Source of the DNA: Paraburkholderia edwinii
GTDB taxonomy: Bacteria > Pseudomonadota > Gammaproteobacteria > Burkholderiales > Burkholderiaceae
Assembly: GCF_019428685.1 (NCBI RefSeq)
Contig: NZ_CP080095.1
Coordinates: forward strand, 1,674,001 to 1,738,000
Length of the DNA: 64,000 nucleotides
Direction: 5' to 3'
Both the position numbers and the translations under genes were made by a program. Positions within the stretch are counted from its first letter, which is position 1, and every line of letters begins with the position of its first letter. Shown piece by piece: positions 4,965-28,170 of this stretch. The notes under the pieces are model-generated. The model was not told where the DNA came from. It searched no databases and saw only the letters and a list, made by a program, of their open reading frames with translations.

Positions 4965-4969
4965 ACTCT

Positions 4970-5018
4970 GTCGTGAAGGGTCCCGAAATGCGACGGGTAA
5001 ATCGGGTTCCTTCACGAC
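4970..5018. repeat. Inverted pair of the phage promoter-like motif after the RNA polymerase gene
   Basis: GTCGTGAAGGGTCCCGA (4970-4986) is the reverse complement of TCGGGTTCCTTCACGAC (5002-5018) except at two positions. The pair begins 5 bases after the polymerase stop codon. It could be two head-to-head phage promoters, or an RNA hairpin with a 17-bp stem and a 15-base loop. Confidence 0.6.
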
Positions 5019-5021
5019 GCA
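5003..5021 (+). promoter_or_regulatory. Candidate phage RNA polymerase promoter, copy 1
   Basis: The core GGTTCCTTCACGACGCA (5005-5021) matches the copies at 8503-8521 and 21229-21247 at 16 of 17 positions. It lies 16 bases before the start at 5038, in one of the few intergenic spaces of the late region. The TTCAC part resembles the CTCAC of T7-family promoters. The promoter role is inferred from position, repetition and the presence of the phage polymerase. Confidence 0.6.
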
Positions 5022-5037
5022 CACCGTGGAGGAACCT

Positions 5038-5205
5038 ATGAAAGAGCAGGTCGTGGTCCGTCTGGACCCGTTCACGTACCGGGAGTTGGAGCAGAAGCTC
5101 ACGCCTCCGGTCGTCACCACGCAGACCACTGAACTCCTCGCTGGCTATCAGCTGGGAGTGCAGTCGGTTCTGAAGCTGCTGCGCGAGGGCTACACAGTTG
5201 GCTGA
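5038..5205 (+). CDS. Small phage protein of unknown function (55 aa)
   Basis: A short ORF (MKEQVVVRLDPFTYRELEQ...) with a good ribosome site (GGAGG, 5 bases before ATG). It follows candidate promoter copy 1, so it would be the first gene of the late transcript. The protein is soluble, with predicted helical C-terminal half (ELLAGYQLGVQSVLKLLREGY), and has no motif I recognise. Its last codons overlap the start of the next gene by 8 bases. Small ORFs at this place are usual between the polymerase and head genes of phiKMV-type phages, but I cannot assign homology. Confidence 0.6.
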   Translation: MKEQVVVRLDPFTYRELEQKLTPPVVTTQTTELLAGYQLGVQSVLKLLREGYTVG

Positions 5206-5644
5206 TCTACCCAAGGAAGTTTGGCCGCGTCAGTGGCCTGAAATCTGGCGGGCCGGTTGCGAGCACGTCGCTCGCATCAAAGCCGACCCGTCGAAGCCTT
5301 GGGCGAAGCATGTGGATGCCGAGCACATCATGCAGCAGATCAAGAGCGGCGAGGTGCACGCGGTGATCTTTAACGACACCTACCTCGTCGTGTTCAACAT
5401 CGGCGTCCCGTGGACAAGCCCCGGCGTGACGATGTTCGAGGAACTGCTGCTGTTGCGTCTCTACCCCGAGCGCGAGAGCGTCAGCTATCGCACGGTCGTC
5501 AGAGGTATTGAGCAGCTTGCTCGTGCCAACGGCTGCGCGGGTGTGATGCTCGGTGCTGCGGGTGCGTACGACGACCGCCTCGGGCGGGTGATTGAACGGC
5601 TCGGCTACGTGAAGGCAGGCGGGTCTTATTACAAGGAGCTTTGA
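5198..5644 (+). CDS. GNAT-like acetyltransferase-fold phage protein
   Basis: The protein has 148 residues. The start is TTG at 5198 with GAGG nine bases upstream, overlapping the previous gene. The pattern is a short N-terminal helical part, then HAVIFNDTYLVVFNIG, LLLLRLYPE and a C-terminal stretch (IEQLARANGCAGVMLGAAG...RLGRVIERLGYVKAGGSYYKEL) that resembles the last strands of GNAT acetyltransferases, where GY/F near the C-terminus is typical. A clear acetyl-CoA loop (Q/RxxGxG/A) is not seen, so the protein may have lost activity. Proteins of this kind occur next to head genes in several podoviruses. A structural or host-modifying role is open. Confidence 0.55.
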   Translation: MADLPKEVWPRQWPEIWRAGCEHVARIKADPSKPWAKHVDAEHIMQQIKSGEVHAVIFNDTYLVVFNIGVPWTSPGVTMFEELLLLRLYPERESVSYRTVVRGIEQLARANGCAGVMLGAAGAYDDRLGRVIERLGYVKAGGSYYKEL

Positions 5645-6042
5645 TGGGCAAGGCACTCAGTTTTTTGAAGCCTGTGGGCAAGGTGTTCGGTATCGATCCG
5701 AGCGGCCAAGCGGATGCGATCCGCGACGCGGCGAACCAGCAGGCAGCAGCCGAGCGAGCAGCAGCGGACGCACAGGCACAGGCTACGCGTGACGCAGCGG
5801 CGGCGCAGTCGGCGCAAGTGAACCAGCAAGCGCAGGCCGTAGCGCAGGCACAGCAAGCGACGATCAACCAATCGACGATTGCGAATCAGATCGCTGCGCA
5901 GCAGTCGCAGCAACAGCCGCAGACGCAAATCGACCTGACGGCTAACACCGCAGACGACTCGTCCGACCCGCGACGCAAGTATCAGGGTGGAGCATCGAGC
6001 GTCGGCGGGACCAACGGAGGCGTCGGCATCCGTTTGACGTAA
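5644..6042 (+). CDS. Ala/Gln-rich coiled-coil phage protein before the portal gene
   Basis: The protein has 132 residues and starts at ATG 5644, which shares bases with the stop of the previous gene (TGATG). Residues about 20-95 are almost entirely Ala, Gln, Asp, Arg and Asn and should form a long helix or coiled coil. The tail (DPRRKYQGGASSVGGTNGG) is Gly/Ser-rich and flexible. No catalytic motif is present. Its place directly before the portal suggests a minor structural or assembly protein. The low-complexity composition makes homology assignment unreliable. Confidence 0.6.
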   Translation: MGKALSFLKPVGKVFGIDPSGQADAIRDAANQQAAAERAAADAQAQATRDAAAAQSAQVNQQAQAVAQAQQATINQSTIANQIAAQQSQQQPQTQIDLTANTADDSSDPRRKYQGGASSVGGTNGGVGIRLT

Positions 6043-6051
6043 GGAGGACAA

Positions 6052-7614
6052 ATGACCGTCCAGAAGAAGTGGTCAGCAATGGACGGTCAGCGCAAAGCGC
6101 TGCTCCTCCGTTGCCAGAAGTACGCGGGATTCACCCTCCCGACTATCTGCACCCCGGACGGGTACAACGAGAATCTTGAGGAGTTACAGACCGATTACCA
6201 GTCGGTCGGCGCGCAAGGCGTCAACAACCTCACGAACAAGCTGATGCTGGCCCTGTTCGCACCGTCTCGCCCGTTCTTTCGCCTCGATGTCCCCAGCGAT
6301 CTACTGAAGAAGCTGATGGGGCAGGAGGGCTTCGATGCAACGCAATTCCAGTCGATCCTATCCGTAGCAGAGCAGAACTGCATTCGCTCGTTGGACCAGA
6401 TGAAGGTGCGTCCGAAGCTGTACGAGGCAGTGAAGCATTTGATCATCACCGGCAACGTCCTGATGGTGCTCGGCAAGAACACGGACGATTCGCCCATTCG
6501 TGCCATCGGCTTGAAGAAGTACGTCGTGAAGCGTTCGCAGTCAGGCCGAGTCATCGACCTGATCGTTCGTGAGGAAGTGCTGTTCGACGAACTGGCAGAG
6601 AAGGCGCAGGAGCAGCTTCGTCAGAAGGCCGACCGATTCCGCGAAATCAAGGTGGACGACGAGAAGGGATGTCCGACCGTCGCGCACTACACGCGGGTCT
6701 GCTGGAAGGACGGCAGCTACATCGAGACGCAGCACGTCGATGAGTACGACCTCGACGGTACCGAGTTCAACGGCAAGTACACCGACGAGACCCTACCGTA
6801 TCGAGTCTTGACGTGGGAACTCCACGACGAGAACAACTACGGCACCGGCCTCGTCGAGCAGAACGCTGGCGACTTCGCTGCGCTGTCTGCGCTGTCCGAA
6901 GCAGAACTCGAAGCCGCGATCCTCGCGTCGCAGTTCCGCTGGCTCGTGAACCCGGCAGGGCAGACCAAACCGGAAGACCTCGAAAAGAGCAAGAACGGTG
7001 CGGCAGTCCCCGGCGTGCAGAACGACATCATCCCGCTCATGACGGGAACCGGGCAGACGCTCAACCAGATCGACGTTACCAACAGCAAGTACATCAATCG
7101 CATCGGGCAAGTGTTCCTGCTCGGCGCATCCGTGATCCGCAACGCGGAGCGGGTGACTGCCGAGGAGGTGCGCCTCGTTGCGAATGAGTTGGAGACCTCG
7201 CTGGGTGGCGTGTACTCGCGACTCGCAATCGACTTCCAGTTGCCTATGGCTTACTGGCTCGTTGCGATGAACGGCGTGAAGCTGCAAGGCACTTCGATCA
7301 CGCCGACGATCATCACCGGCCTCGATGCCCTGTCACGTAACGGCGACCTCGACAACCTGAAGCTGTGCATTCAGGACATGGCCGCTGTCAGCGGACTACC
7401 ACCGCAGATGCAGTTCGTCCTCAAGCTCGACGCTATCGCGAACGCGATCTTCTCGGGTCGCGGCGTCGATCCAACGATGTACATCAAGTCACCTGACCAG
7501 CAAGCAACGGACCTCAAGAATCAGCAGTTGATGGCCTTGCAGCAGCAGGTAGCCCGCCCCGTCGCCTCGGCAGTTGCCGGGAACATGGCGGCTCAATCTC
7601 AAGGAGCGCAGTAA
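6052..7614 (+). CDS. Portal (head-tail connector) protein
   Basis: The protein has 520 residues, the usual length of T7-type connectors (T7 gp8 is 536). The opening region (RKALLLRCQKYAGFTLPTI... then GAQGVNNLTNKLMLALFAPSRPFFRLD) is characteristic of T7-like head-tail connectors, as is the ERVTAEEVR segment that precedes the C-terminal barrel. Twelve copies would form the DNA entry ring at one capsid vertex and bind the tail tubular proteins and terminase. The ribosome site overlaps the stop of the preceding gene (TAAGGAGG). The scaffold gene begins 3 bases after the stop. Confidence 0.92.
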   Translation: MTVQKKWSAMDGQRKALLLRCQKYAGFTLPTICTPDGYNENLEELQTDYQSVGAQGVNNLTNKLMLALFAPSRPFFRLDVPSDLLKKLMGQEGFDATQFQSILSVAEQNCIRSLDQMKVRPKLYEAVKHLIITGNVLMVLGKNTDDSPIRAIGLKKYVVKRSQSGRVIDLIVREEVLFDELAEKAQEQLRQKADRFREIKVDDEKGCPTVAHYTRVCWKDGSYIETQHVDEYDLDGTEFNGKYTDETLPYRVLTWELHDENNYGTGLVEQNAGDFAALSALSEAELEAAILASQFRWLVNPAGQTKPEDLEKSKNGAAVPGVQNDIIPLMTGTGQTLNQIDVTNSKYINRIGQVFLLGASVIRNAERVTAEEVRLVANELETSLGGVYSRLAIDFQLPMAYWLVAMNGVKLQGTSITPTIITGLDALSRNGDLDNLKLCIQDMAAVSGLPPQMQFVLKLDAIANAIFSGRGVDPTMYIKSPDQQATDLKNQQLMALQQQVARPVASAVAGNMAAQSQGAQ

Positions 7615-7617
7615 TCC

Positions 7618-8418
7618 ATGACGACCGAAGCTAACGCAACCGCAGCAGCCCAAGGTAACGCGGCAGCAGCCGCAGCACAGCCCGCACAGGCGGCTGGAAC
7701 GGTGGCGACAGCCGTTGGTACTCCCGCAGCCGCCGCAGCCGCCCCTGCGGCCTCTACGACCCCGGTAACGCCCGAGGCCAAGACAGAGGCCGGTACGTTC
7801 GGCGAGGTGGTGTCGTATCAGCCGACCGGTAACTCGAACCTCGACCTCGCGCTCGGCTTCGCAGGCAAGCACGGCCTGTCGCCCGAGCACCCGGCGATGT
7901 TGGAGGCGAGCAAGGGCAACTTCGGCCCGGTGAAGGCGCTGTTCGCAGAGAAGGGCGTGCAGGGCTGGGAAGCGTACATCGCGCTTGCCGAGGAAGGCTA
8001 CAAGGCCCATACGGAGACCGAGGCGCAGAAGACGCTGGCGATCCAGAACATTTGCGTCAGTGCGGCGGGCGGCGAACAGGAATGGGCCGATGTGCTCGGC
8101 TGGGCGTCACAGAACGCGGAGCCTGCCGAGAAGGAAGCCGTGAACTCGGCACTCGCGCAGGGCGGCGTAGTCGCCGAGGCGGTGGCGGCGTATCTAGTGG
8201 GCCTGTATCGCGGCGCACCGGGTACGACGTACTCGCCGACGCAGAGCGCTGTAAAGCCTGACGCGGGCCGTGGCGCGGGATCGTCGGTGAATACGCCGCT
8301 GTCGCCCCGCCAGTTCGCGCAGGAATCGCAGAAGCTCCGTGCGACGTTGGGTGTGGAATTCGAGAACACGCCCGAGTACAAGCAACTCGTTCAACGGCGC
8401 ACCGCGTATCGCGGCTAA
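7618..8418 (+). CDS. Capsid assembly scaffolding protein
   Basis: The protein has 266 residues. The first 60 or so are Ala/Thr/Pro-rich and disordered (MTTEANATAAAQGNAAAAAA...). The middle and C-terminal parts are acidic and helical. The last segment (LSPRQFAQESQKLRATLGVEFENTPEYKQLVQRRTAYRG) is basic and typical of the coat-binding end of T7 gp9-like scaffolds. It lies between portal and capsid genes, exactly where the scaffold is found in T7-type phages. It guides procapsid assembly and leaves before DNA packaging. A terminator hairpin follows the gene. Confidence 0.88.
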   Translation: MTTEANATAAAQGNAAAAAAQPAQAAGTVATAVGTPAAAAAAPAASTTPVTPEAKTEAGTFGEVVSYQPTGNSNLDLALGFAGKHGLSPEHPAMLEASKGNFGPVKALFAEKGVQGWEAYIALAEEGYKAHTETEAQKTLAIQNICVSAAGGEQEWADVLGWASQNAEPAEKEAVNSALAQGGVVAEAVAAYLVGLYRGAPGTTYSPTQSAVKPDAGRGAGSSVNTPLSPRQFAQESQKLRATLGVEFENTPEYKQLVQRRTAYRG

Positions 8419-8444
8419 GCAGTAGCCACAGCTACCACCACAGA

Positions 8445-8477
8445 GGGCCAGTTCGGAGCAATCCGGCTGGCCCTTTT
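8445..8477 (+). terminator. Terminator after scaffold gene
   Basis: GGGCCAG (8445-8451) pairs with CTGGCCC (8467-8473), extended by CGGA/TCCG inside, and is followed by TTTT. It would stop transcription just before candidate promoter copy 2, isolating the capsid transcript. Confidence 0.7.
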
Positions 8478-8502
8478 GCATTTCAGGGCCGGAATTTCAA
8501 TT

Positions 8503-8521
8503 CAGGTTCCTTCACGACACA
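8503..8521 (+). promoter_or_regulatory. Candidate phage RNA polymerase promoter, copy 2 (capsid)
   Basis: CAGGTTCCTTCACGACACA at 8503-8521 is identical over all 19 positions to the copy at 21229-21247. It lies between a terminator and the major capsid gene, 73 bases before its ATG, the arrangement of the strong T7 phi10 promoter. Function is inferred. Confidence 0.65.
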
Positions 8522-8531
8522 CAGAACATCG

Positions 8532-8571
8532 GTGTCATTCCTAGAGACCTAAGCGTGGCGAGAAATGACAC
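8532..8571 (+). other. Hairpin in the capsid 5' leader
   Basis: GTGTCATT (8532-8539) and AATGACAC (8564-8571) are perfect reverse complements with a 24-base loop. The hairpin lies inside the expected leader of the capsid mRNA, between the candidate promoter and the ATG at 8595. It could be an RNase III or stability element. Confidence 0.45.
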
Positions 8572-8594
8572 GCGCATTGCGATAAGGAGTCCTC

Positions 8595-9608
8595 ATGGGC
8601 TTGGCAGTTTCCGCACTGAACCGACCGGGTGCAAACCTTCAGGTCGGTGACAACAAGCAGATCGGTAGCGCCCCGGCAGCAACGAACCCGATGGCGCTGC
8701 ACATCGAGCAGTACACCGGCATGGTCGAGGGCACGATTGCCCGCAAGTCGGTGATGAACGGCTATATCCCCGTTCGCCCGGTTCGCGGCACGTCCACGAT
8801 CACCGGCTTCCGCGTCGGCGAAGCAACGCTGCAAAAGCTGACGCCGGGCGTCTCGCCTGACGGTACGGTTGTGCAGGCGTCGAAGAACAAGCTGACGGTC
8901 GATACCGTCGTGATCGCCCGCAACGTGACGCCGATGATCGACGACTTCCAGAACAGCTACGACGCTCGTGCTGAAGTCGGCAACGAACACGGGAAGAAGA
9001 TTTCCAAGTTCTACGACCAGTCGTTCCTGATCCAAGCGATCAAGGCTGCGCAGATCAGCGACATGACCGGCTATCCGAGCGGCTGGCAACCGGGCACGGT
9101 GAAGTCCTTCGATACCGTGGGTCAAGAGAAGGACCCGGCTGCGCTCGAAGACATGTTCGGCAACCTGTTCTCGGACATGGAAGACAAGGACGTGGACCCC
9201 ATCGGCGATGACCTGATCATCGTCGCGAAGCCGTGGGTGTACTACACGCTTCTGAAGAACGACCGCCTCGTGGATCGTTCGTTCGTCACGTCGGATGGTA
9301 CGACGATCAAGACGAAGGAAATCGAAGCGTATGGCGTTCGTATCGTCCGCAGCAACAACCTTCCGAGCACCAACGTGGTCGGCCACTACCTGTCGAACGA
9401 CGGTAACGGCAACGCCTACGACGGCGACTTCACCAAGACGATTGCCGTGGCGTTCTCGCCGCGTGCACTGCTCGCCGGTGAAACGATCCCGCTCACGACC
9501 GACGTGTTTTGGGAGCCGCAATCGAAGTCGTGGTTCATCGACGCGTACCTGTCGTTCGGTGTTACGCCTAACAACCCGGCCTTCGCCGGTCTGATTAAGT
9601 CCGCTTAA
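8595..9608 (+). CDS. Major capsid protein
   Basis: The protein has 337 residues, matching T7-type major capsid proteins (T7 gp10A is 345). Landmarks are the N-terminal arm (GDNKQIGSAPAATNPMALHIEQYTGMVEG), the E-loop region (IPVRPVRGTSTITGFRVGEATLQKLTPG) and the HK97-fold segments LIIVAKPWVYYTLLKNDRLVDRSF and AVAFSPRALLAGETIPLTTDVFWEPQ. It forms the icosahedral shell. It has its own candidate phage promoter, a leader with a hairpin, an AAGGAG ribosome site and a terminator directly behind, so it can be expressed at high level as a separate unit. Codon use is strongly GC-rich, consistent with high expression. Confidence 0.95.
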   Translation: MGLAVSALNRPGANLQVGDNKQIGSAPAATNPMALHIEQYTGMVEGTIARKSVMNGYIPVRPVRGTSTITGFRVGEATLQKLTPGVSPDGTVVQASKNKLTVDTVVIARNVTPMIDDFQNSYDARAEVGNEHGKKISKFYDQSFLIQAIKAAQISDMTGYPSGWQPGTVKSFDTVGQEKDPAALEDMFGNLFSDMEDKDVDPIGDDLIIVAKPWVYYTLLKNDRLVDRSFVTSDGTTIKTKEIEAYGVRIVRSNNLPSTNVVGHYLSNDGNGNAYDGDFTKTIAVAFSPRALLAGETIPLTTDVFWEPQSKSWFIDAYLSFGVTPNNPAFAGLIKSA

Positions 9609-9615
9609 TCGCCCA

Positions 9616-9648
9616 AGCCCCGATGCCCACAAGGTGTCGGGGCTTTTT
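9616..9648 (+). terminator. Terminator after major capsid gene
   Basis: AGCCCCGA (9616-9623) pairs with TCGGGGCT (9637-9644), followed by TTTTT. It lies 8 bases after the capsid stop, the position of the T-phi terminator in T7. Read-through would supply the tail genes. Confidence 0.85.
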
Positions 9649-9666
9649 CGCTTTAAGGAGGCATCA

Positions 9667-10254
9667 ATGCGCCTTACGCAACTCGATGTCGTGAATCAGT
9701 GCTTGGCCTCGATGGGCGAAACGCCGTTGAACTCCATCGACTCCGATCACCCCTTCGTCGCAGCGGCACTGCTGAAGATGAAGACGACGAATACTCAGGA
9801 GCAAGCGAAGGGTTGGTGGTTCAACACCGACTACATCACGCTCACTCCCGACCCGAACACGAAGTTCATCTACGTCCCTGCGGACGCCATCAACGTGAAC
9901 CCCGACGACGACGGTAACGCGTTGGTGATCCGAGGCAGACGCCTGTACGACCGCTTCCGGTCCTCGTATGAATTCACCGCACCCGTCTCGGTGTCGCTCG
10001 TGCGCGAGCTTCCATTCGATGACCTGCCGATGCTCGCGAATCACATGATCGCAGCGCGCACGGTGCTCGACTTCCAGAACGACTACGACGGCGACGCGGA
10101 GAAGTACAACAAGCTCGGCGGTGCATATCAGCAAGTGTTCACGACCCTTCGTGCGGAGCACATCCGGCAGATGAAGTCGAACATGCTGAACAACCCGTCC
10201 GTCATGAAGACCCTGCGCCAAATCCGCCCGATGTCGCGGTACACGCGCTACTAA
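9667..10254 (+). CDS. Tail tubular protein A (gatekeeper)
   Basis: The protein has 195 residues, the size of T7 gp11 (196). The opening MRLTQLDVVNQCLASMGETPLNSID is the typical start of T7-type tail tubular protein A. Later features are KGWWFNTDYITLTPD and RRLYDRFRSSYEF. Twelve copies would form the ring between portal and nozzle that keeps packaged DNA in. The ATG at 9667 follows a full AAGGAGG site six bases upstream and is preferred over an upstream in-frame start that would lie inside the terminator. It is followed by tail tubular protein B. Confidence 0.92.
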   Translation: MRLTQLDVVNQCLASMGETPLNSIDSDHPFVAAALLKMKTTNTQEQAKGWWFNTDYITLTPDPNTKFIYVPADAINVNPDDDGNALVIRGRRLYDRFRSSYEFTAPVSVSLVRELPFDDLPMLANHMIAARTVLDFQNDYDGDAEKYNKLGGAYQQVFTTLRAEHIRQMKSNMLNNPSVMKTLRQIRPMSRYTRY

Positions 10255-10263
10255 GGAGGCGCG

Positions 10264-12846
10264 ATGGGGAAGGTAACAGGAAGCTACGCCAGTATCACGC
10301 GAGGCGTCAGCGAGCAAGTTCCTCAAGACCGGCATCCCGGTCAGCATTACGAACAAATCAACATGGTCTCGGACCCGGTGAACGGGTTGGTGCGTAGGCA
10401 CGGCTCGATCACGATGGACGAGAAGAATCTCAACCTCGGCCCACTGACGGCAGACCAGCAAGCGTACGCACGGAACTACCGCGAGTACAGCTTCTTCATC
10501 AACGGCACCGAGTACAGCCTGATCTACATGAGCGAGGAACGGTCGAGCAGCGATACGCTCCCGTTCTGCTTCGTGCTCAACAAGACGACCGGCAAGTTCC
10601 TCGACGTGCAATTGGGCAACCTGTCGGCGGGCTTGTCGGATTGGGTGTTCGGTGGCGTGAGTGCCGTGACCACGGTCGGCAAGTACCTCGTGCTCGCATC
10701 GAATCGCATCGGCCCCGGCTACTCGGTCAATGACAAGTACGCAGCCACAGGTACCCGTGCGGTCGCCGAGGTTCGTGGCGGTGCATACTCGCGCACGTTC
10801 AAACTGAAGATCACGCGTGCCGACAACGGCGCGGTAGTCACTGCCTCGTACACGACGATGACGCAGAGCTATCCGAACCTGCTCGACACAAGCGATATTC
10901 CGCTTACGCTGCCTGATGGCTCGACGAACAGGGATTATCAGAAGCAAGTCAACGACCGCGTGAACGCCTATAACTCTGCGGTCAACAAATGGATCGGCGA
11001 CGCGGCGAAGTCCGTACAGCCTGAGACCATCGCTGCAAATCTGGCGTCGCAACTTGCAGCAGCCGGATTCACTTCCATGTTCGCGCTTGGCGGCACGGTT
11101 GTGTTGGCGGGCGTCAGTGCGGTATCTGCGGACGACAGCGGTGACGGTACGTTATTCCGCGCATGCTTCAACGTCGTCGATGACGTGAGCAAGCTCTCGG
11201 CGGTGCACTTCCCCGGCAAGGTGGTGAAGGTGCAGCCGAAGGGTGTGGCTGACCCGTACTACATGACCGCTGTAGGCGATAACGCCGCGCTCGCTGATTA
11301 CCAGACAGTCACATGGACAGAGGGCGCGGCACAGGTAGTCACGCCCGGTCAGGTGTTTGCCATCGGCGCGGTGTCCACGGACGGCACGAAGTTCTATCTC
11401 GCGAACAACGCGGCAGAACTCAACACGATGGCAGGCACTACCGCTCCGGGTTTCTCCGCGAGCGTGTGCGGTGACCTGAAGGCGACCGGCGCAGTGCCTT
11501 ACTTCTTCGGCAAGCGTGTCACGTTGTTGACTGTATTCATGGACCGCTTGGTGGTCGTGTCGAACGGCGTGATCTTCATGTCACGCGTCGGCGACTACTT
11601 CAACTTCTTCCGCAAGTCGATGCTGACGGTGCAGGACGATGACCCGATTGAGGAATACGCCCTCGGTGCTGAGGACGACATCATCAGCAAGTGCGTCACC
11701 TATAACAAGGACCTGTTCATGTTCGGCCAACGGAAGCAGTACACCGTTAGCGGACGTGTGGTGCTGACGCCGAAGGGGACCAACGTATCCGTCACCGCGA
11801 ACGAGCAGGACGCGATGTACGCGCAGCCGGTCGTGGTAGGCAACCTGCTCTACTACGGAAAGTACGAGGATGCACGGAACCAGACTGGACCGTCGCCATA
11901 CGCGGGCCACATCAACCAGTTCCAACTCGGCCTGTTCCAAGACACGCCCGAGACGTTCAACGTGTCGCAGCAGTTGAGCCGGTACATCAAGGGCCGACCG
12001 ACTGAATTCGCGGTACTGTCCGCGCCGTCATGCTTGCTCGTGCGGACTGACGGTTACGACAACGGTGTGTACGTCTACAGCTTTATCGATCAGCCCGGCA
12101 CGCAGTCACGCGCATTCGATTCGTGGTCGCGATGGTTGTGGTCCACGAACGTCGGCCAGATCATCGGCCTCACGACGTACGAAGCCTCGATCTTCGTGTA
12201 CTTGCTGCGGCACGACGGCACGCACACATGGGTCGCGTGTGAGCAGTTCGTGATGGACTCAGACTTGTCGGTGAACCCGTACCTCGACGCCCAACGCCCG
12301 GCGAGTTCTTACTCGGCTGGTGGGGGCTTCATGACTGGCTCGAACACGGCGACGGTGAGCGACGGTGCAGTAGCCATCGCGAACACTGTGGATCGTGCGT
12401 GGTTGGGCGATAGGACGACACGCTTCAGCGACTTCATGGCTCGCCTCAACACGGACGAGCAGGCAGCGGCGTGGGTCGGGATCGAGTTCGAATCATCGGT
12501 CGAGCCTACGCCGCCATTCGTGCGGGACCAGAACGACAAGGTGATCGTCAATGGTCGTCTCGTGGTCGGTCGCTACACGGTCTCGGTGAATAACACTGGT
12601 GGCCTCGATGCGTACTTGAACACTGCGACCGGCAGCACGAACGTCTATCGCTTCAATGGTCGTCGGGTCGGCATCAGCAACAACCGGGTCGGCATGCAGC
12701 CGATTACAACAACGGCGCTGCAAGTTCCCGCTGGTCGGGCGAACACCGAGCACACGATGCGATTCGTGTCGAGGACATGGCTTCCCATGTCTCTGACGGC
12801 AATCGAGTGGGTCGGGCAGTTGTTCCTTAACTCTCGACGTGTGTAA
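10264..12846 (+). CDS. Tail tubular protein B (nozzle)
   Basis: The protein has 860 residues; T7 gp12 has 794. The N-terminus (YASITRGVSEQVPQDRHPGQHYEQINMVSDPVNGLVRR) is the signature start of this family. The long beta-rich body includes RLVVVSNGVIFMSRVGDYFNFFRKS and QRKQYTVSGRVVLTPKGTNVSVTANEQD, both conserved in T7-type nozzles. Six copies build the tail tip through which DNA leaves, and the tail fibres attach at its junction with protein A. The ribosome site overlaps the previous stop (TAAGGAGG). Confidence 0.93.
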   Translation: MGKVTGSYASITRGVSEQVPQDRHPGQHYEQINMVSDPVNGLVRRHGSITMDEKNLNLGPLTADQQAYARNYREYSFFINGTEYSLIYMSEERSSSDTLPFCFVLNKTTGKFLDVQLGNLSAGLSDWVFGGVSAVTTVGKYLVLASNRIGPGYSVNDKYAATGTRAVAEVRGGAYSRTFKLKITRADNGAVVTASYTTMTQSYPNLLDTSDIPLTLPDGSTNRDYQKQVNDRVNAYNSAVNKWIGDAAKSVQPETIAANLASQLAAAGFTSMFALGGTVVLAGVSAVSADDSGDGTLFRACFNVVDDVSKLSAVHFPGKVVKVQPKGVADPYYMTAVGDNAALADYQTVTWTEGAAQVVTPGQVFAIGAVSTDGTKFYLANNAAELNTMAGTTAPGFSASVCGDLKATGAVPYFFGKRVTLLTVFMDRLVVVSNGVIFMSRVGDYFNFFRKSMLTVQDDDPIEEYALGAEDDIISKCVTYNKDLFMFGQRKQYTVSGRVVLTPKGTNVSVTANEQDAMYAQPVVVGNLLYYGKYEDARNQTGPSPYAGHINQFQLGLFQDTPETFNVSQQLSRYIKGRPTEFAVLSAPSCLLVRTDGYDNGVYVYSFIDQPGTQSRAFDSWSRWLWSTNVGQIIGLTTYEASIFVYLLRHDGTHTWVACEQFVMDSDLSVNPYLDAQRPASSYSAGGGFMTGSNTATVSDGAVAIANTVDRAWLGDRTTRFSDFMARLNTDEQAAAWVGIEFESSVEPTPPFVRDQNDKVIVNGRLVVGRYTVSVNNTGGLDAYLNTATGSTNVYRFNGRRVGISNNRVGMQPITTTALQVPAGRANTEHTMRFVSRTWLPMSLTAIEWVGQLFLNSRRV

Positions 12847-12857
12847 GGAGGTGCCCT

Positions 12858-13781: not shown

Positions 13782-13790
13782 GGAGGCACT

Positions 13791-16184
13791 ATGGCAGGCT
13801 ACGGGCCTGATTCATTTGCGCTCAACGGTAACGGAAGCGTCGTCGTGCAGCAGCCGACACCGACACCGAGCGGGCCGCAGATCACGATTCAAGGTGGAGG
13901 TAGCGGTCAGGTCGCTCCGGGGCAGGCCTCTATTGCACCGGGCGGCGAGTTTGGTGGCGCAGCCGCTAACTCAGTTGCGTCGCTGAACGCACTGAACAAG
14001 TTGACGCAGGGCATGCTGCAACCGTACATTGCAGCCGAGCAGAAGCGCCTGTACTTCGACGGTATGTCGCAGGTCGTGCAAGGCCGCACGTTGCAGCAGG
14101 TCGAGAGCGAGCAGCCGTGGTACACGAAAATCTTCGGACCGTCCGCGACGGTGCGGGGCGCACAGGCGATGACTGCCATGACTGCGCTGACACAGGCGCA
14201 GAACGAGTTCATGGAGAACATGCCGAGTCTGCGGCAGCGAGACCCTGACACGGTGCGCAAGTACCTCGTGGATCAGGCGACGCGCATCGGAAACACCGGC
14301 GATCCGCTCGTCGATGGCCTCGTGCAGTCCAAGCTCGCGGAGCAGTGGGGCACGATGCTCGACACGCACATGAAGCAGCATATCGCGTGGCAGCAGGACG
14401 ACATGGGCCAGAAGTTCGTGAACAACACGGTGGCCTCGGGCAAGCTGTTGCAGTCCTCGCTGCATCAGGCGACTGGCTACGCAGTGTCGTCGGAGCAGGC
14501 CGAGCAGACGCGGCAAATGGAAACGGACAAGTTCACGGACTCCCTGCTTCGCCCATACGGGATGACCGACGAGGCGTACGGTAAGTACATGGCCTCGGCG
14601 GCTCGCGCCAACCTGAGCAACGGTAATTTCGAAGCGTACAACGCGCTCAAGAGCAAAGGCGACCTGTGGAATGCGATTCCGATGGATGCTCGTGTGCAGC
14701 TTGAGAACGAGGAGGAACTGTGGACGCAGAAGGCACTGAAGAAGGCTCCTGCACTCTCCGACATCGGCGGCGACCAGACCAAGCTCTCGATGTCGCTGAT
14801 TCAAGGTACGTTCCCCGGTGATGAGGCGTCGCTCAACAAGACCATCGACGGTATTAACGCGGACTGGAAGGCGCGCAGCGGCGCGTCCACGGATGTCATC
14901 GACAACCACGGGCGCGACCTGATGCTGAAGCAGTTCTACATGGGCCGCAACAAGGTCAACACGACCATTGCAAAGGCGCAGGCGGGGCTGGCGGATGATC
15001 AGCTTCAGCGTACGACAGCGTTGGCCGCACTCAATGGTGGCTCGGCGGCGATCATGCCGTCGAACGTGACCGAGCAGAATGCGCAGCTTGCAGTCGAGGA
15101 GTTCTGGCAGAACACGCAAGGCGATTCACAGGATAACCCGCAATCGCTCGACAACGGTGTTAGCAAGCTCGCGCTCGTGAGCGACGAGAAGAAGCTGCGC
15201 CCGGCATCGCTCGAATCACAACTGCGTCAGGACTCGGAAGCACTGTTCGTCACGGGCGGCACGATCACACCGCGTGCGCAGCAGTCGTTGCAGGTTATGC
15301 AGAAGTTGCTGACCGTACCGGGCGGCGGGCCGGGAGCCTTGTCGAACTACATCGGCACAGAGAACGCGAAGCGAGTCGCGGCGTTCATCGGTAGCGGCGT
15401 GGACATCAACGACCCGAAGCAGCTTGAGACCACGCGCTCGTGGTTGAAGAACGGCAGCGGTGCAGTGACGACGAAGGCCGACCGTGATGCAGCCGCGTCG
15501 TACGTAGGCAGTCAAGACCCCGGCTTCTTCAAGCGCATGCTGCCGATTTTCGGCGGGCCGGGTTCGTTGACCTCATACGACCTGAACGACGCTACGAAGG
15601 CAGGCATCGCTACTGACCTCGCGCCGTACATCGCCACGACGAAGAAGGCGTTCCCTTCGATGTCGGACGAGCAGGCTGCGCAGTTCGCGTACCAGCAGGT
15701 CTACGGCAACCTGAACAACACCGACTTCATCGACGGCACGATTGTCAAGCACAACCCGTACGTTCCCGGCGCGCAGTCCTTGTTCCAAGGCGTGCAGGCG
15801 ATCAGCAAGGGCGGCGTGAATCAAGCCAACGACGACTACCAGTGGTCGGTTAAGGAGGTCGCACGGGGCAACCTGAAAGACGCGGTGACGGCGGGCGTGT
15901 CGAAGCTCAACGACGCCCACGCGGGCGAGCCGCTGTACGTGAAGGCAGACATCGACAACTTCCGTCCGAACGACTTCCAAGCAGTCGGCGGCGAGCAACT
16001 GGCGCACGGCATCGTGACCGTGTACTACCAGAACTCGAAGAACGGTCAGGTGTATCCGGTCTTGATCCGTCCCGAGCAGGTACGTGACAAGTACCAAGAA
16101 CGGCTTAATGCAACACACAAGCCGACCGGCGACGAGCCGATTTCGGATGGCCCCTTCCCATCGGGAGGCGTAGGCCAGTTCTAA
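13791..16184 (+). CDS. Internal virion protein (gp15-like)
   Basis: The protein has 797 residues (T7 gp15 is 747). After a Pro/Gly/Gln-rich leader (about residues 1-60) it is mostly alpha-helical, with LTQGMLQPYIAAEQKRLYFDGMSQVVQGRTLQQVESEQPWYTKIFGP near the start, a segment typical of these proteins. The C-terminal region (VTVYYQNSKNGQVYPVLIRPEQVRDKY) is conserved in gp15-like proteins. Together with its neighbours it forms the internal core and the periplasmic tunnel for DNA entry. Position between gp14-like and the giant ejection protein supports the call. Confidence 0.85.
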   Translation: MAGYGPDSFALNGNGSVVVQQPTPTPSGPQITIQGGGSGQVAPGQASIAPGGEFGGAAANSVASLNALNKLTQGMLQPYIAAEQKRLYFDGMSQVVQGRTLQQVESEQPWYTKIFGPSATVRGAQAMTAMTALTQAQNEFMENMPSLRQRDPDTVRKYLVDQATRIGNTGDPLVDGLVQSKLAEQWGTMLDTHMKQHIAWQQDDMGQKFVNNTVASGKLLQSSLHQATGYAVSSEQAEQTRQMETDKFTDSLLRPYGMTDEAYGKYMASAARANLSNGNFEAYNALKSKGDLWNAIPMDARVQLENEEELWTQKALKKAPALSDIGGDQTKLSMSLIQGTFPGDEASLNKTIDGINADWKARSGASTDVIDNHGRDLMLKQFYMGRNKVNTTIAKAQAGLADDQLQRTTALAALNGGSAAIMPSNVTEQNAQLAVEEFWQNTQGDSQDNPQSLDNGVSKLALVSDEKKLRPASLESQLRQDSEALFVTGGTITPRAQQSLQVMQKLLTVPGGGPGALSNYIGTENAKRVAAFIGSGVDINDPKQLETTRSWLKNGSGAVTTKADRDAAASYVGSQDPGFFKRMLPIFGGPGSLTSYDLNDATKAGIATDLAPYIATTKKAFPSMSDEQAAQFAYQQVYGNLNNTDFIDGTIVKHNPYVPGAQSLFQGVQAISKGGVNQANDDYQWSVKEVARGNLKDAVTAGVSKLNDAHAGEPLYVKADIDNFRPNDFQAVGGEQLAHGIVTVYYQNSKNGQVYPVLIRPEQVRDKYQERLNATHKPTGDEPISDGPFPSGGVGQF

Positions 16185-16200
16185 CCGAGTGTGCAGTGTG

Positions 16201-16223
16201 CGGCGGGTTCAACCAGCCCGCCG
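16201..16223 (+). other. Hairpin before the giant ejection-protein gene
   Basis: CGGCGGG (16201-16207) pairs with CCCGCCG (16217-16223) with a 9-base loop and no T-run. It may limit read-through or protect mRNA ends. It also shows that the true start of the next gene is at 16255 rather than upstream. Confidence 0.45.
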
Positions 16224-16254
16224 TGCAATGCGTACTCTCTACTTAGGAGTGTTT

Positions 16255-19200
16255 ATGACAGCACCTATTGGCGTCCGCAATAACAACCCCGGCAACCTCG
16301 TCTACGGCGCAGGCTTTGACGGCGAGGAGGAAGGAGAAGGTGGGTTTGGTTCGTACCCGACTCCGGTTGCGGGTGGCTCGGCCTTGATCAAGAACCTAGT
16401 GGCCTACAGCACGAAGCACGGCTTGAATACGGTCGAAGGGATCGTCGGTCGCTGGGCACCGCCGAACGAGAACGATACGAACGCTTACGCAGCGAATGTT
16501 GCTAACTCGCTAGGCGTTGGCGCGACGGACACGTTGAACATGCAGGACCCCGGAACCCTCGCGAAGCTCGCGACAGCTATCTCGAAGCAAGAGGGCAACG
16601 GTGCGGTGTACAACGCGGAGTTCTACTCGGCGCTCACCGGCAACAACCCCGAGCTTGCTGCCTACATCGCGTCGGCGAAGCTGCCCGCGTTCAGTAAGTC
16701 GATGGCTCGTGCGAACGCGTACCGCAGCAATCCTAACGCGTCGGGTGAGCCTGCAATGAATGTCGATGACACGTCGGCAATCGATGCGGTGTGGAATCAA
16801 GGCCCGGTGATCGAGCAGGCAGCAGCGTTGCAAGCGGGGCAGGAACTCGCAGCACAGACGCGCTGGGCAGGTATGGGTGAGTCGTTCGTCGATGCGCTGG
16901 TGAACGGTACGGTCACAGGTGCGCTCGTGGACATCACGCAGCGTGGCGAAGCCGACCCGAACTTCAAGATCACGCCGGAACTGTTCGATCAGATGACGCA
17001 GAACGGCGTGTTGCAGAACAAGGAACTGTCCGACTACGTGTCGGGTGCGATCAACACCGACGACTTCAACCGTCGCATGGAACTCGCGCAAGAGCGTGCC
17101 GACTTCTTTCAACGCGCAGCCAACACGAGCGGACTGCAAGCGATGGGTAACGGTGCGTCGCAATTGCTCGGAGGCATGGCCGACCCCGTGGCCGTAATCG
17201 CGACGATGGGCGCGGGCTGGGCAGCGTCGGCGGCGAGGGCTGGATTCACGACGACAGCACTGTCGCGTGCTGTCAGTGGCGCGGCGGGCGGTGCAGTTGG
17301 TAACGTCGCAGTCGGCGCATTCGTCGGCGGCGCGCAGAATCAAACGCTCGGCTGGTCGGACATTCTCTCGCAGGGCATCCAAGGTGCAGCGCTCGGTGCG
17401 TTAGGGCATGCGGCATCGGCTTACCACGACCCGGTGATGGCTGGCGTAGGTGAGAACTTACAGGAGACGATGAAGCGCGGTCTCGACAACGACTGGAATA
17501 AGGGTCGGCAGAACCTCACGAATCCGCTGAATGAATTCGACAATGGACTGAGCACGTCGATGTCGGACTACAGGACGGCGCGGCATGTGAACGCCACGAA
17601 CGAGCCTGACTTCGCACCGCGTGCGAATCGTGCGTCCATCGCTGAATCACTTGGCTATGCTCCCGAGCCAACCCTTCCTGATGCACGATACCAAGCCCTG
17701 CACGACAGCGGCGTGGTCATGGAGTTGCGCTCCGCTGACGACCTGAAGCGTGTGTCGGCATTCCAAGCCAAGTACGGGACTGATATCCCGGAGGACGCGA
17801 AGGCGTTCTACAGCCCGCAGGACGACCGCGTGTACGTCTTCCGTGATCGACTCACACCGGAGGAAGCAGCGGACCCACAGGGCTTGCTGATGCACGAGGT
17901 AGGCGTCCACTACGGCCTCGAACGATCGGTTGGCACGGAGCGGTATAACACCCTGCTTGAATCTCTCGATACATCGACGGACCCGAAGGTCCTTGAAGCT
18001 AAGGCACGCATCCCGGCTGATACGCCTGCGTACCTGCGCGGCGAGGAGACGCTGGGTTATCTCGTCGAGAAGCACCCGACACTCGGTGTCGTGCAGAGCA
18101 TCGTCAGCAACGTGAAGAACTGGCTGCGCGAGAACATCCCGGCCTTCCGTCGCATGTCGCTCACCACGAACGATGTGATCCAGTACATCAAGGGTTCGCT
18201 GAAGAACGTGCAGCGCGAGGGTCGCCTGTCTTCGGACCTGACGCTCCCGTACGTATGGCACGGTTCCCCTGTGGCTGGTATCGATAAGCTCGACCTCGCG
18301 TACGCGGGGACCGGTGAGGGTAACGCCGCGTTCGGTTTCGGTCACTATGTCACGACCGAGAAGGGCACGGCCATCGACTACCGCAACAAGGAATCAGCAC
18401 GACGCGGACTCGACGGTAACGAGGGTGGGCTGTATCAATTGAAGATGCTCGCGGACCCGGAACAGATGCTTGCGTGGGATCGACCGGTATCGGAGCAGCC
18501 GCAGCTACACGAGGCGCTGCAACGCGCTGGTGTGCGCGACCTGTCAGGCACAGGTGGTGACGCGTACGACCGCTTGACGAAGAAGCTCGGAAGTCAGCAG
18601 TCCGCGTCGGACGCACTGAACGCGGTAGGCATCCCCGGCGTGAAGTACGCGACGGGCCGCTCGCGTAGCAGCGAAGTCGTGAACCACAACTTCGTCCTGT
18701 TCTCGAACGACCACCTCGACATCACGAATCGCTACTCGCGCAACGTGAAGCCGATGTACCCGAGCAACGCAGGCCCGGTACAGCTTCGTCTGTCGAAGGC
18801 CGCACAGGACGTTACGGATGCAGCGCGTGCGTGGGATGACACCCCGACGCCCGAGAGCAAGCTGCAACGCGAGCGACTGTCTAACTGGTACAACGAGCAG
18901 CGCGTGAAGCTGGGCGCTGACAAGGTATCGACTTGGATCGACTCGCCGGGTCTTATCGTGCAGCGCTCGGCATCGAAGGTCGCACGCTTCATCGGTGCGC
19001 ACCTGTTCGAGGACGGCACCGGGATCGGTAAGCGAGAATCGACGGTGGCCTTGCAGTACGAAATGATGCAAGCGGGCTACAAGCACGCTGCACTCCCGAC
19101 GATTCAAGAGAACCTGACCAAGGGCTTTACGGCGGCAGAGAAGTTGCAGTACATGCTCGGCTTCGGCAAGGCCGCAGAGGACCGCGTACATCGCGAGGTG

Positions 19201-21192
19201 GCAGTCGAGAGGTTGGCGCATCGCGCAGCGAACGAGGCCGGTGTGAAGTTCCAATCGACCGCGCCCGCGCACATTCAAGCGATGGCGAAGGCACTCGACG
19301 ACTTCTACGACAACGTGACCTCGGACGGCAAGCTCGCAGGCAACCCGTACGCCGAGGCGGTACGTGGCGGCGGCTTCGTAGGCTTCATGCCGTACGCGTG
19401 GGATTGGGAGACTATCTCTCGCGCCTACGGCGGCGACCAGCCGCGCTTTGCCGCGTTCCATGAGAACCTGACGCAGCAGTACACGGAGCGCGTCGTCGAT
19501 CCGGCTGTGACTGACCTGCTGAAGAAGAACCCGCAGGCCACGCCTGCCGAGGTGGACGCACTGCGTAACAAGCTGAAGGCGAAGGTCGCGGACCTCGTGG
19601 ACAACAAGGTCTCGATGTTGATGGCCGACCCGCAGTCGCGCATCGAGCACTTCGACAATGCGTTCGAGACCATCGCCGGCGACCTGCTGAAGGAGAACTT
19701 CGACGGGCAGGTAATCGACCCGACGTTGTTGCAGCAGTTCAAGGAGCAGCTTGCAGACATCCGCAAGGATCGCTCGCGCACTGAGCTTGACCTGACGCGT
19801 GAAGTAAACGGCGTGTCGCTGCTCGACTTCATGGACTACAACGGCGAGCGCATGGTCACGCAGGGTGCTCACAGGTTCGCTGGTCTGAACGCGCTGGCTC
19901 GCAAGGGCTACATCGACATCGCCGACAAGGACGGCGCAATCGAGGCAGCACGTAAGGACGGCGCGACCCCTGAAGAACTGCAAGCGCTCGACTTCGGCTT
20001 CCGTGCGTTCGGCATGGGGCAGCTTCGCAATTCGGAGCGAGCAGGCTTCGCCACGCTGCGCAACTTCACGTACGCGGCGACGATGGGCAAGCTCGGATTG
20101 TCCGTGCTGGCTGATGCGTCGAATGTGGTGGCCGCGAGCGGCATGACCGGGTTCTTCCGTGCGATGGGCAATGCGTTCAGCAAGGACAGCGAGTTCCTGA
20201 AGCAGATGGCGATTGATGCACCGTCACTGCTGGGACAGGACTACCGGTTGCATAGCTTGACGCCTGACATGCACGCTGAAGGTCGGGTGATGATCGGCGA
20301 AGGCTCGAACCTCAACCGGGTCTCGCAGCGCGCCGCGCAACTCACGTCGTACCTCAACGGTTCGAACCTGATTGGCAAGATGCTGCATCGGGGCTTCCTG
20401 CCCGTGTTCGCGGAGGACATGCTGCGCACGATCAACGGCGAGGCCGGTGGCATGACTACGCGTCGCTTGGCCGATGTTGGCCTCGACAGCGGAATGCTCG
20501 CCCGCATCAAGGGGCAGCTGGACCAGTTCGACGCAGGCCGCGAGCGCGGTGGGCGTATCAATTGGGACAAGTGGGACGACCAAGAGGCGGCAGACATGCT
20601 GGTCGAGGCGATGCACCGAGGGACGTTCCAAACGTTCCAACGTGCGATGGTTGGCGAGGCCCCGATGTGGCTGTCGGAGTCGAAGGCCGGTGCGCTGTTC
20701 GGTCAGTTCCGTCGCTACGGCATCGTGTCCACAGAGAAGCAGCTTGCCCGCAACGTGTCCATCGGCGACACGAATTCGATGGCTGCATTCGCGTTCGGTA
20801 CGACGTGGGCCGCGATGCTGTACTACTCTCGGCTGCAACTCAACACGCTGGGCAAGACGGACGCGGAGAAGGCGAAGTACATCAAGGACAACACGGGCGG
20901 GTTCAAGCTTGCTGCGGGCGTCTTCACGCTGATGAACATGAGCGGCGTGTTACCTGACGCGATCAACCTCGGTGAACTGGTGTTCGGTGGCAACTCCTAC
21001 CAGCAGACCAGTGGCTCGCCGGTCGCGTCGATGGGCTACCTCGGTAACGTCGGCAAGGCCGCGCATTCGGTCGGCTCGCTCGTGACCGGACAGAGCACCA
21101 ACCACGGTACTGACTTCCGCAACATCCTGCGCATCGCCCCGCTGTCGAACTCCATCGTCGGCACGTACATCAGCAACTCCTCTCGCCACTGA
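16255..21192 (+). CDS. Giant internal virion/ejection protein with lysozyme-like, HEVGVH and ADP-ribosyltransferase-like regions
   Basis: The protein has 1645 residues (T7 gp16 is 1318). The start at 16255 has TAGGAG nine bases upstream. Residues 5-115 (GVRNNNPGNL... then TVEGIVGRWAPPNENDT) belong to a virion lysozyme-like family that locally opens peptidoglycan. About residues 300-370 are Gly/Ala-rich and could insert in membranes. HEVGVH at 547-552 resembles a metallopeptidase site, but with spacing HExxxH rather than HExxH. Residues about 665-830 (WHGSP at 668, GTGEGNAAFGFGHYVT, final NFVLF) match the pattern of ADP-ribosyltransferases of phage polyvalent proteins. The C-terminal half is helical and gp16-like. 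It probably extends the ejection channel and delivers enzymes with the DNA. Enzyme activities are inferred. Confidence 0.82.
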   Translation: MTAPIGVRNNNPGNLVYGAGFDGEEEGEGGFGSYPTPVAGGSALIKNLVAYSTKHGLNTVEGIVGRWAPPNENDTNAYAANVANSLGVGATDTLNMQDPGTLAKLATAISKQEGNGAVYNAEFYSALTGNNPELAAYIASAKLPAFSKSMARANAYRSNPNASGEPAMNVDDTSAIDAVWNQGPVIEQAAALQAGQELAAQTRWAGMGESFVDALVNGTVTGALVDITQRGEADPNFKITPELFDQMTQNGVLQNKELSDYVSGAINTDDFNRRMELAQERADFFQRAANTSGLQAMGNGASQLLGGMADPVAVIATMGAGWAASAARAGFTTTALSRAVSGAAGGAVGNVAVGAFVGGAQNQTLGWSDILSQGIQGAALGALGHAASAYHDPVMAGVGENLQETMKRGLDNDWNKGRQNLTNPLNEFDNGLSTSMSDYRTARHVNATNEPDFAPRANRASIAESLGYAPEPTLPDARYQALHDSGVVMELRSADDLKRVSAFQAKYGTDIPEDAKAFYSPQDDRVYVFRDRLTPEEAADPQGLLMHEVGVHYGLERSVGTERYNTLLESLDTSTDPKVLEAKARIPADTPAYLRGEETLGYLVEKHPTLGVVQSIVSNVKNWLRENIPAFRRMSLTTNDVIQYIKGSLKNVQREGRLSSDLTLPYVWHGSPVAGIDKLDLAYAGTGEGNAAFGFGHYVTTEKGTAIDYRNKESARRGLDGNEGGLYQLKMLADPEQMLAWDRPVSEQPQLHEALQRAGVRDLSGTGGDAYDRLTKKLGSQQSASDALNAVGIPGVKYATGRSRSSEVVNHNFVLFSNDHLDITNRYSRNVKPMYPSNAGPVQLRLSKAAQDVTDAARAWDDTPTPESKLQRERLSNWYNEQRVKLGADKVSTWIDSPGLIVQRSASKVARFIGAHLFEDGTGIGKRESTVALQYEMMQAGYKHAALPTIQENLTKGFTAAEKLQYMLGFGKAAEDRVHREVAVERLAHRAANEAGVKFQSTAPAHIQAMAKALDDFYDNVTSDGKLAGNPYAEAVRGGGFVGFMPYAWDWETISRAYGGDQPRFAAFHENLTQQYTERVVDPAVTDLLKKNPQATPAEVDALRNKLKAKVADLVDNKVSMLMADPQSRIEHFDNAFETIAGDLLKENFDGQVIDPTLLQQFKEQLADIRKDRSRTELDLTREVNGVSLLDFMDYNGERMVTQGAHRFAGLNALARKGYIDIADKDGAIEAARKDGATPEELQALDFGFRAFGMGQLRNSERAGFATLRNFTYAATMGKLGLSVLADASNVVAASGMTGFFRAMGNAFSKDSEFLKQMAIDAPSLLGQDYRLHSLTPDMHAEGRVMIGEGSNLNRVSQRAAQLTSYLNGSNLIGKMLHRGFLPVFAEDMLRTINGEAGGMTTRRLADVGLDSGMLARIKGQLDQFDAGRERGGRINWDKWDDQEAADMLVEAMHRGTFQTFQRAMVGEAPMWLSESKAGALFGQFRRYGIVSTEKQLARNVSIGDTNSMAAFAFGTTWAAMLYYSRLQLNTLGKTDAEKAKYIKDNTGGFKLAAGVFTLMNMSGVLPDAINLGELVFGGNSYQQTSGSPVASMGYLGNVGKAAHSVGSLVTGQSTNHGTDFRNILRIAPLSNSIVGTYISNSSRH

Positions 21193-21203
21193 TTCGTAGG
21201 AGG

Positions 21204-21219
21204 CCCGCCTGTCGGGCTT
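21204..21219 (+). terminator. Possible weak terminator after ejection-protein gene
   Basis: GCCCG and CGGGC flank CCTGT in the space after the ejection-protein stop, followed by only TT. It lies just upstream of candidate promoter copy 3, matching the terminator-promoter order before the capsid gene. Confidence 0.4.
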
Positions 21220-21228
21220 CCCGCGAAA

Positions 21229-21247
21229 CAGGTTCCTTCACGACACA
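21229..21247 (+). promoter_or_regulatory. Candidate phage RNA polymerase promoter, copy 3 (tail fibre)
   Basis: CAGGTTCCTTCACGACACA is identical over 19 bases to the copy before the capsid gene. It ends 15 bases before the tail-fibre ATG; the AAGGAG ribosome site lies between. T7 has promoters in comparable late positions (phi13, phi17). Confidence 0.65.
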
Positions 21248-28095: not shown

Positions 28096-28170
28096 TGGTG
28101 GGTGGTAAGGAGATCGAATCCCTGACCCCTGCCGTGTGAAGGCAGTGCTCTACCGCTGAGCTAACCACCC
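28096..28170 (-). tRNA. tRNA-Val (CAC), probable prophage attachment site
   Basis: Read on the minus strand, the sequence folds as a tRNA: acceptor stem GGGTGGT/ACCACCC, D-arm GCTCAGCGGTAGAGC, anticodon arm CTGCC-TTCACAC-GGCAG with anticodon CAC, variable loop, T-arm AGGGA-TTCGATC-TCCTT, discriminator A and encoded CCA. Its 3' end faces the integrase 107 bases away, the classical arrangement for tRNA-targeted integration. The gene is intact, so the phage copy of the 3' end must restore it. It lies downstream of dnaQ. Confidence 0.93.

Follow-up and report, generated by a model that had tools for sequence, protein, structure and literature searches.

The promoters of phage JG068 (record NC_022916) were predicted in 2013 as a 16-mer by PHIRE, in a paper that describes the phage as obligately lytic (PMC3765740). 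A screen of 26 phage RNA polymerases reported in 2024 detected activity in eight and raised the suspicion that many of the others had been paired with the wrong promoter; the JG068 enzyme is listed with its 16-base promoter and is not named among the active ones in the sections covered (PMC11475235). The promoters of T7, T3 and SP6 are described as sharing the core CACTATAG at positions -7 to +1 (PMC13029058).

The locus that is compared here with these systems lies in a 64,000-nucleotide stretch of Paraburkholderia edwinii DNA (the window) and belongs to a prophage of 44,503 bases, bounded by a 22-base repeat at C1:1657642 and at window position 28123. The prophage carries the gene set of a T7-type podovirus, comprising ligase, RNA polymerase (RNAP), head-tail adaptor, scaffold, capsid, nozzle, internal virion proteins, tail fibre and a terminase domain, with a Toprim protein, a helicase and a DNA polymerase encoded to the left of these. 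Judged by RNAP, the nearest GenBank phages are Paku (60.7%) and JG068 (54.7%). The features on which the argument rests are as follows, in window coordinates unless prefixed.

2430..4964, plus strand: single-subunit RNA polymerase gene, 844 aa (PHROG 414, E 7.5e-297; Pfam RNA_pol; T7 RNAP in PDB)
4967..4989, minus strand: reversed copy of the candidate promoter, ATTTCGGGACCCTTCACGACAGA, directed leftwards into the RNAP gene from a predicted +1 at 4972
4999..5021, plus strand: forward copy after the RNAP gene, 23 bases in T7 register, predicted +1 at 5016, start GACGCA
8445..8477, plus strand: terminator-like hairpin with T-run between the scaffold gene and the predicted pre-capsid promoter, read from the sequence
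8499..8521, plus strand: pre-capsid forward copy, AATTCAGGTTCCTTCACGACACA, with +1 predicted at 8516
8595..9608, plus strand: major capsid protein gene (PHROG 267, Gp10A-like)
21225..21247, plus strand: forward copy ahead of the tail-fibre gene, with +1 predicted at 21242
21263..22690, plus strand: tail-fibre gene (PHROG 13481, Phage_T7_tail)
26966..27988, minus strand: tyrosine integrase gene at the right prophage end (PF00589, E 5.9e-29)
28123..28144, no strand assigned: right-hand att site, one of the two copies of the 22-base repeat, within tRNA-Val(CAC)
L007:2642 (C1:1657642), outside the window: left copy of the 22-base att repeat
L007:4101-4123, outside the window: fourth forward copy, at the left end of the prophage

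The tRNA-Val(CAC) gene occupies 28096-28170, and no tRNA was found at the left prophage end (L007:2642). In a further prophage, G165 (the same prophage as L028 and not counted twice), a 49-base repeat includes 21 of the 22 att bases; the long repeats of two others, G409 and G437, differ. The hairpin at 8445..8477 is absent from our hairpin scan, whose loop limit was 8. A search of 4900-8700 against Rfam returned no family over threshold and one match under the gathering score, which we take as chance. Between the pre-capsid copy and the capsid start codon, at about 8533-8577, the leader holds CCTAAGCGTGGCRAG, an element conserved exactly or nearly so in an alignment of nine phages and flanked by complementary GTGTCA and TGACAC; it may possibly represent a structured leader or a regulator of capsid translation.

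A search of the window placed GGTTCCTTCACGACRCA at 5005-5021, 8505-8521 and 21231-21247, always without mismatch and on the plus strand, just where the original prediction had put it, and reading of the sequence bore out the identity of the last two copies over 19 bases. With up to three mismatches allowed there are five matches in the window against 0.41 expected, a number reached in none of 100 shuffles. Two copies had been overlooked: an inverted one at 4967-4983 (minus strand) and a fourth exact one at C1:1659107-1659123 (L007:4107-4123), which lies 15 kb to the left of the window in the same prophage. The fourth copy, at the left end, stands outside the late region to which the original prediction had assigned the sites. 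The stretch that follows this left-end copy, L007:4107-5190, is about 1 kb without an obvious gene, and its start is rich in CAGCAG-like letters.

In the whole 8.3-Mb genome, exact GGTTCCTTCACGACRCA occurs four times, always on the plus strand and always within the prophage. The motif is short and free of gaps, and its four exact copies precede gene blocks. Abundant copies in host DNA would have spoken against a phage promoter and were not seen: no exact copy lies outside the prophage, and on this ground a host element was rejected. With up to two mismatches allowed, six places in the genome compare with seven for a control in which the letters were reversed (and which has no copy without mismatch), so that the exact copies alone stand out. 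None of 58 other genomes searched contains exact GGTTCCTTCACGACRCA. Three exact matches are present in viral contigs (L008, L009 and L010); those in L008 and L009 fall within open reading frames and were dismissed as promoter sites and attributed to chance, and the flanks of the L010 match are those of L009.

Relatives of the prophage keep the places and change the letters. Genome searches covered 398 and 399 genomes from larger groups, with an RNAP match in 6 and 2, respectively, our own included, and the set of related loci was limited to the best 80 of 178 relatives. Sixty loci contain an RNAP gene as well as a capsid gene; for each, the space that follows the RNAP stop codon was set against the one that precedes the capsid gene. 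Where RNAP identity is at least 54.6% (21 loci, representing 20 distinct phages, since L033 is the same genome as L012 and later counts use L012 only), every locus has a motif of its own common to both spaces, with scores of 10.5 to 25.5; of 179 mismatched phage pairs used as a null, 95% score 10 or less and the maximum is 12, the lowest real score (L060, 10.5) lying under that maximum. Below 54.6% identity, 11 of 39 loci exceed the 95% value of 10, and many show one forward copy after RNAP with no pre-capsid match detected in the space tested. The two spaces of phiKMV share no match of this type.

Across phages the motif follows a common plan, ATTTC, a variable middle and then GACACA, with letters that vary from phage to phage. 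In L016, an IMG/VR contig with 81% RNAP identity, the 17-base core is one base (T to A) away from the window motif; the change falls at predicted position -4 and is carried by the reverse copy of L016 as well. Forward copies are found at the left end, after RNAP, before the capsid gene and before the tail-fibre gene in our prophage, Paku, G409 and G437, which make up the complete genomes scanned from the temperate-type group. A scan of prophage and relatives, as had originally been proposed, gave a fourth exact copy in the one and other letters at the same places in the others; places, copy number and conservation can all be read directly from these sequences. The pre-capsid 23-25-mers used in the comparisons below were chosen by eye for matching the post-RNAP space, so that later agreement between forward and pre-capsid copies is partly by construction; the reverse copies were not used for the choice.

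In T7, 17 bases lead up to the start site at +1. The distance from the A/T-rich beginning of the motif to GACACA is 17 bases in 15 of 25 phages, 18 in nine and 19 in one. Since 17 bases is the T7 distance, the +1 is most likely the G of GACACA, though the longer spacings mean that it may be off by a base or two. In this register the predicted promoter has 23 bases, AATTCAGGTTCCTTCAC followed by GACACA, with an A/T-rich segment at -17 to -13, phage-specific letters at -12 to -1 (G at -11 in the window motif) and a purine at the presumed +1. T7 RNAP residues R746, N748 and R756 align with R720, N722 and R730 here, and Q758 with K732. One element of the original prediction, the likening of TTCAC to the CTCAC of T7 promoters, fails on register: TTCAC stands at -5 to -1 and the T7 CTCAC at -9 to -5, and the relatives keep GACACA 17-19 bases past the A/T-rich start. 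Over -7 to +1 the window reads CCTTCACG in place of the T7 core.

If the copies are read by the RNAP encoded beside them, the motif letters should change with that enzyme. We scanned 208 segments of RNAP across 25 phages, controlling for overall RNAP distance by partial correlation; the RNAP-motif tests as a whole used 24 phages, 23 (L069, with a partial RNAP, being dropped) or 25, with subsets of 18 and 15. Covariation is observed among the 25 related phages: the segment that goes with the upstream half of the motif is T7 755-767, in the specificity loop (r 0.42, family-wise p 0.0002), and the one that goes with its last five bases is T7 770-783 (r 0.36, p 0.0006), a segment outside the loop, T7 293-303, also passing for the upstream half (p 0.012). 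In the 18 phages of less than 78% identity the top segments are T7 744-756 (family-wise p 0.34) and 770-783 (p 0.006). In the 15 phages below 70% they are T7 267-280 for the upstream half (p 0.87) and 766-779 for the last five bases (p 0.22), and in the 15 phages with 17-base spacing neither part of the motif gives a significant result. A pre-chosen test of loop 739-770 against the upstream half gives p <0.0001 with 25 phages, 0.03 with 18 and 0.41 with 15, whilst the loop proper shows no signal for the last five bases (p 0.43, 25 phages). As controls in the 25 phages, the palm is flat and the N-terminal region reaches p 0.04. Motif letters thus appear to track the specificity loop, an association that weakens as close relatives are removed and is significant only with them. 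Base-specific reading of the last five bases upstream of +1 by residues just behind the specificity loop is not known from T7.

Taken with the single-subunit RNAP gene at 2430-4964 of the same prophage, these comparisons make it very probable that the forward copies are promoters of the prophage's own polymerase, which is how the original prediction had read them. The support is comparative, lying in the conserved places, the changing letters and the JG068 prediction. The accompanying claim of a new promoter specificity also stands up: the letters differ from phage to phage, whilst the kind of promoter was known from JG068. As far as letters can tell, the specificity predicted for our prophage is new, its nearest counterpart among the best 80 of 178 relatives being that of L016.

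The inverted copy needs a separate account. At 4967-4983 on the minus strand it has three mismatches in 17 to the motif and, over 4967..4989, five to the pre-capsid copy, and it is the best reverse match of the whole prophage; it follows the RNAP stop codon directly and stands back-to-back with its forward neighbour at 4999-5021. Among 21 phages a reverse copy is found at p <0.02 in 17, is not significant in L013 (p 0.068) and is absent from L023, L024 and L051. In the 17, the distance from the RNAP stop codon to the predicted reverse +1 is 3 to 18 bases, and the upstream ends of the divergent pair are 8-11 bases apart in 15. The two held-out prophages fetched after the pattern had been noticed, G409 and G437, both have the reverse copy. 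In 17 of 23 phages no other reverse-strand site of the locus matches as well as the reverse copy, which beats the reversed-letters control in 16 of 23, with ties in L012, L028 and L032 and worse scores in L013, L023, L024 and L051. Similar divergent pairs were noted by eye, unscored, in L020, L027, L059, L064, L069, L094 and L118/L123. After RNAP in L036, L047 and L072, the place of the divergent pair is taken by two tandem forward copies, one on either side of a short insert.

A link between the reverse copy and lysogeny was considered, and no clear one emerged. Of 22 records searched, which include fragments and one whole genome (L013), 13 matched PF00589, and the reverse copy is also present without PF00589, in the near-full-length L073 and L044 and, by eye, in P14 (= L059) and L064. 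Found in phages that have an integrase as well as in others, it is more than a plain lysogeny device.

We favour the view that the reverse copy, too, is a promoter, and hold this to be somewhat more probable than not, with clearly less confidence than for the forward copies. The early region, the genes after RNAP, the capsid operon and the tail-fibre region would each be transcribed from one of the four forward copies. The fifth, back-to-back with the second, would read left from the RNAP stop codon and is, as our best guess, an antisense promoter for the same polymerase, such that abundant RNAP would transcribe against its own gene, perhaps to limit its own production. Antisense repression of the RNAP gene is accordingly the function that we would place first, and a divergent replication origin second.

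The strongest competing explanation is that the reversed and forward copies together form an RNA hairpin behind RNAP, such as an RNase III site or a 3'-end stabiliser, and that the reverse copy is no promoter; in T7 an RNase III site follows gene 1. The two copies do make an inverted repeat, which folds into a stable stem, more stable than in shuffled sequences (z -2.9 to -5.0), in four of five cases, Paku giving -1.3, and over -6 to +3 they pair, G-U included, at 161 of 171 positions in 19 phages. Identity in the core is, however, to be expected of any two copies of one promoter, and outside it pairing drops to 81 of 114 positions at -12 to -7 and 29 of 57 at +4 to +6. Comparisons of the reverse copy used 17 and 19 phages; the four in which it is not significant (L013, L023, L024 and L051) were excluded. 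Summed over the 19, it differs at 93 positions from the pre-capsid copy and at 125 from its neighbour, being nearer to the pre-capsid copy in 16, equally near in two and farther in one. Where the neighbour departs from the pre-capsid copy (52 cases), the reverse copy keeps the pre-capsid base unpaired at 21 and as a wobble at 19, follows the neighbour with a Watson-Crick pair at 8 and does something else at 4; a one-sided sign test of 21 against 8 gives p 0.012, and the record falls short of the compensating change that a stem would call for. That the reverse copy resembles the distant pre-capsid copy more than the one beside it favours an antisense promoter over an RNA hairpin.

The predicted starts point the same way. 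The first six transcribed bases would be GACACA before the capsid gene in 17 of 19 phages and GACGCA after RNAP in 14 of 19, a site-specific difference that is kept while the rest of the motif changes; the reverse copy begins with GACAGA in 6 of 19 and never (0 of 19) with GACGCA. These start classes, together with the pattern of mismatches, speak for separately tuned promoters and not for a stem kept for pairing. We regard the hairpin as unlikely, though its folding in four of five cases leaves a processing role some probability.

It is less likely still that the back-to-back pair serves mainly as a replication origin, with the polymerase priming in both directions. The T7 promoters phi1.1A and phi1.1B have an origin role, two promoters do lie directly behind the T7 RNAP gene, and most phages tested have the divergent pair at that place. 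Both of those T7 promoters point forward, however, and detrended GC skew, a weak test, showed no consistent turn at the RNAP stop codon in six genomes.

That the repeats are operators of a lysogeny repressor, and not promoters, is very improbable. The prophage has an integrase and att sites, and operators are likewise short, repeated and intergenic, but JG068, which is described as obligately lytic and in which PF00589 finds no match, has sites at the same places. In related phages the motif varies with the RNAP loop, and it has a T7-like spacing with a GACACA start. Chance or a recent duplication, to which the small number of copies (four) might lend itself, can be dismissed on the shuffles, on the searches of the 8.3-Mb genome and the 58 others and on the conservation of the places with other letters.

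With the forward copies read as promoters and the reverse copy as a candidate antisense promoter, a wider picture may be sketched, to which we are only tentatively attached and which we would not yet call probable. In a clade of mostly integrase-bearing T7-like phages, a conserved reverse promoter at the 3' end of the RNAP gene would let the enzyme fire back through the gene that encodes it, this self-limiting antisense loop or divergent origin would be kept through turnover of specificity, and the polymerases would read the five bases before +1 base-specifically by way of T7 770-783. The analysis offers some two dozen predicted RNAP-promoter pairs (25 phages) in a field where promoter prediction has proved hard, and the conserved backward promoter, if active, would give the polymerase gene a brake of its own or a divergent origin.

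How, then, does the locus compare with known systems? Like the class III promoter of T7, the motif has 17 bases upstream of +1 and an A/T-rich upstream end; unlike it, it lacks the CACTATAG core and starts with GACACA, not GGGAGA. T7 resembles our prophage in having promoters directly behind the RNAP gene (phi1.1A/B) and differs in the forward direction of both. The literature searched, some of it in excerpt, yielded no reverse phage promoter at the 3' end of an RNAP gene; Boeckman et al. 2022, on temperate T7-like phages and outside that search, may already describe promoters of this group. LUZ100 is, like ours, a T7-like phage with an integrase and a conserved 17-bp motif of its own. Antisense RNA has been observed in LUZ100, where it lies downstream of the capsid gene; a phage promoter there lies upstream of RNAP, and the passages covered contain no reverse promoter at the RNAP 3' end (PMC10134795).

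The nearest relatives are closer in plan. L016 shares the motif after RNAP and before the capsid gene as well as the reverse copy, with its single altered core base. Paku (MZ326863) matches our prophage at all five places, with a forward copy at four of them and a reverse copy at the other, and has an integrase at the right end, whereas its letters are ATTTCATGACCCTAAGCAGACACA and its record annotates no promoter. JG068 shares the general T7-like plan (RNAP 55% identical) and, like our prophage, has sites at the left end, after RNAP, before the capsid gene and before the tail-fibre gene; it differs in its letters, TCRGTAGACTATCTAG, and in two extra copies before the DNA polymerase gene. Placed in the present register, its 16-base promoter is without the first three bases and anything after +2. 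Forward copies alone are reported in the accessible part of the JG068 paper, although a weak reverse copy, with 8 mismatches in 23, is present in the genome. Promoters had thus been predicted at the same places in JG068, so that the kind is known and the specificity predicted here is new.
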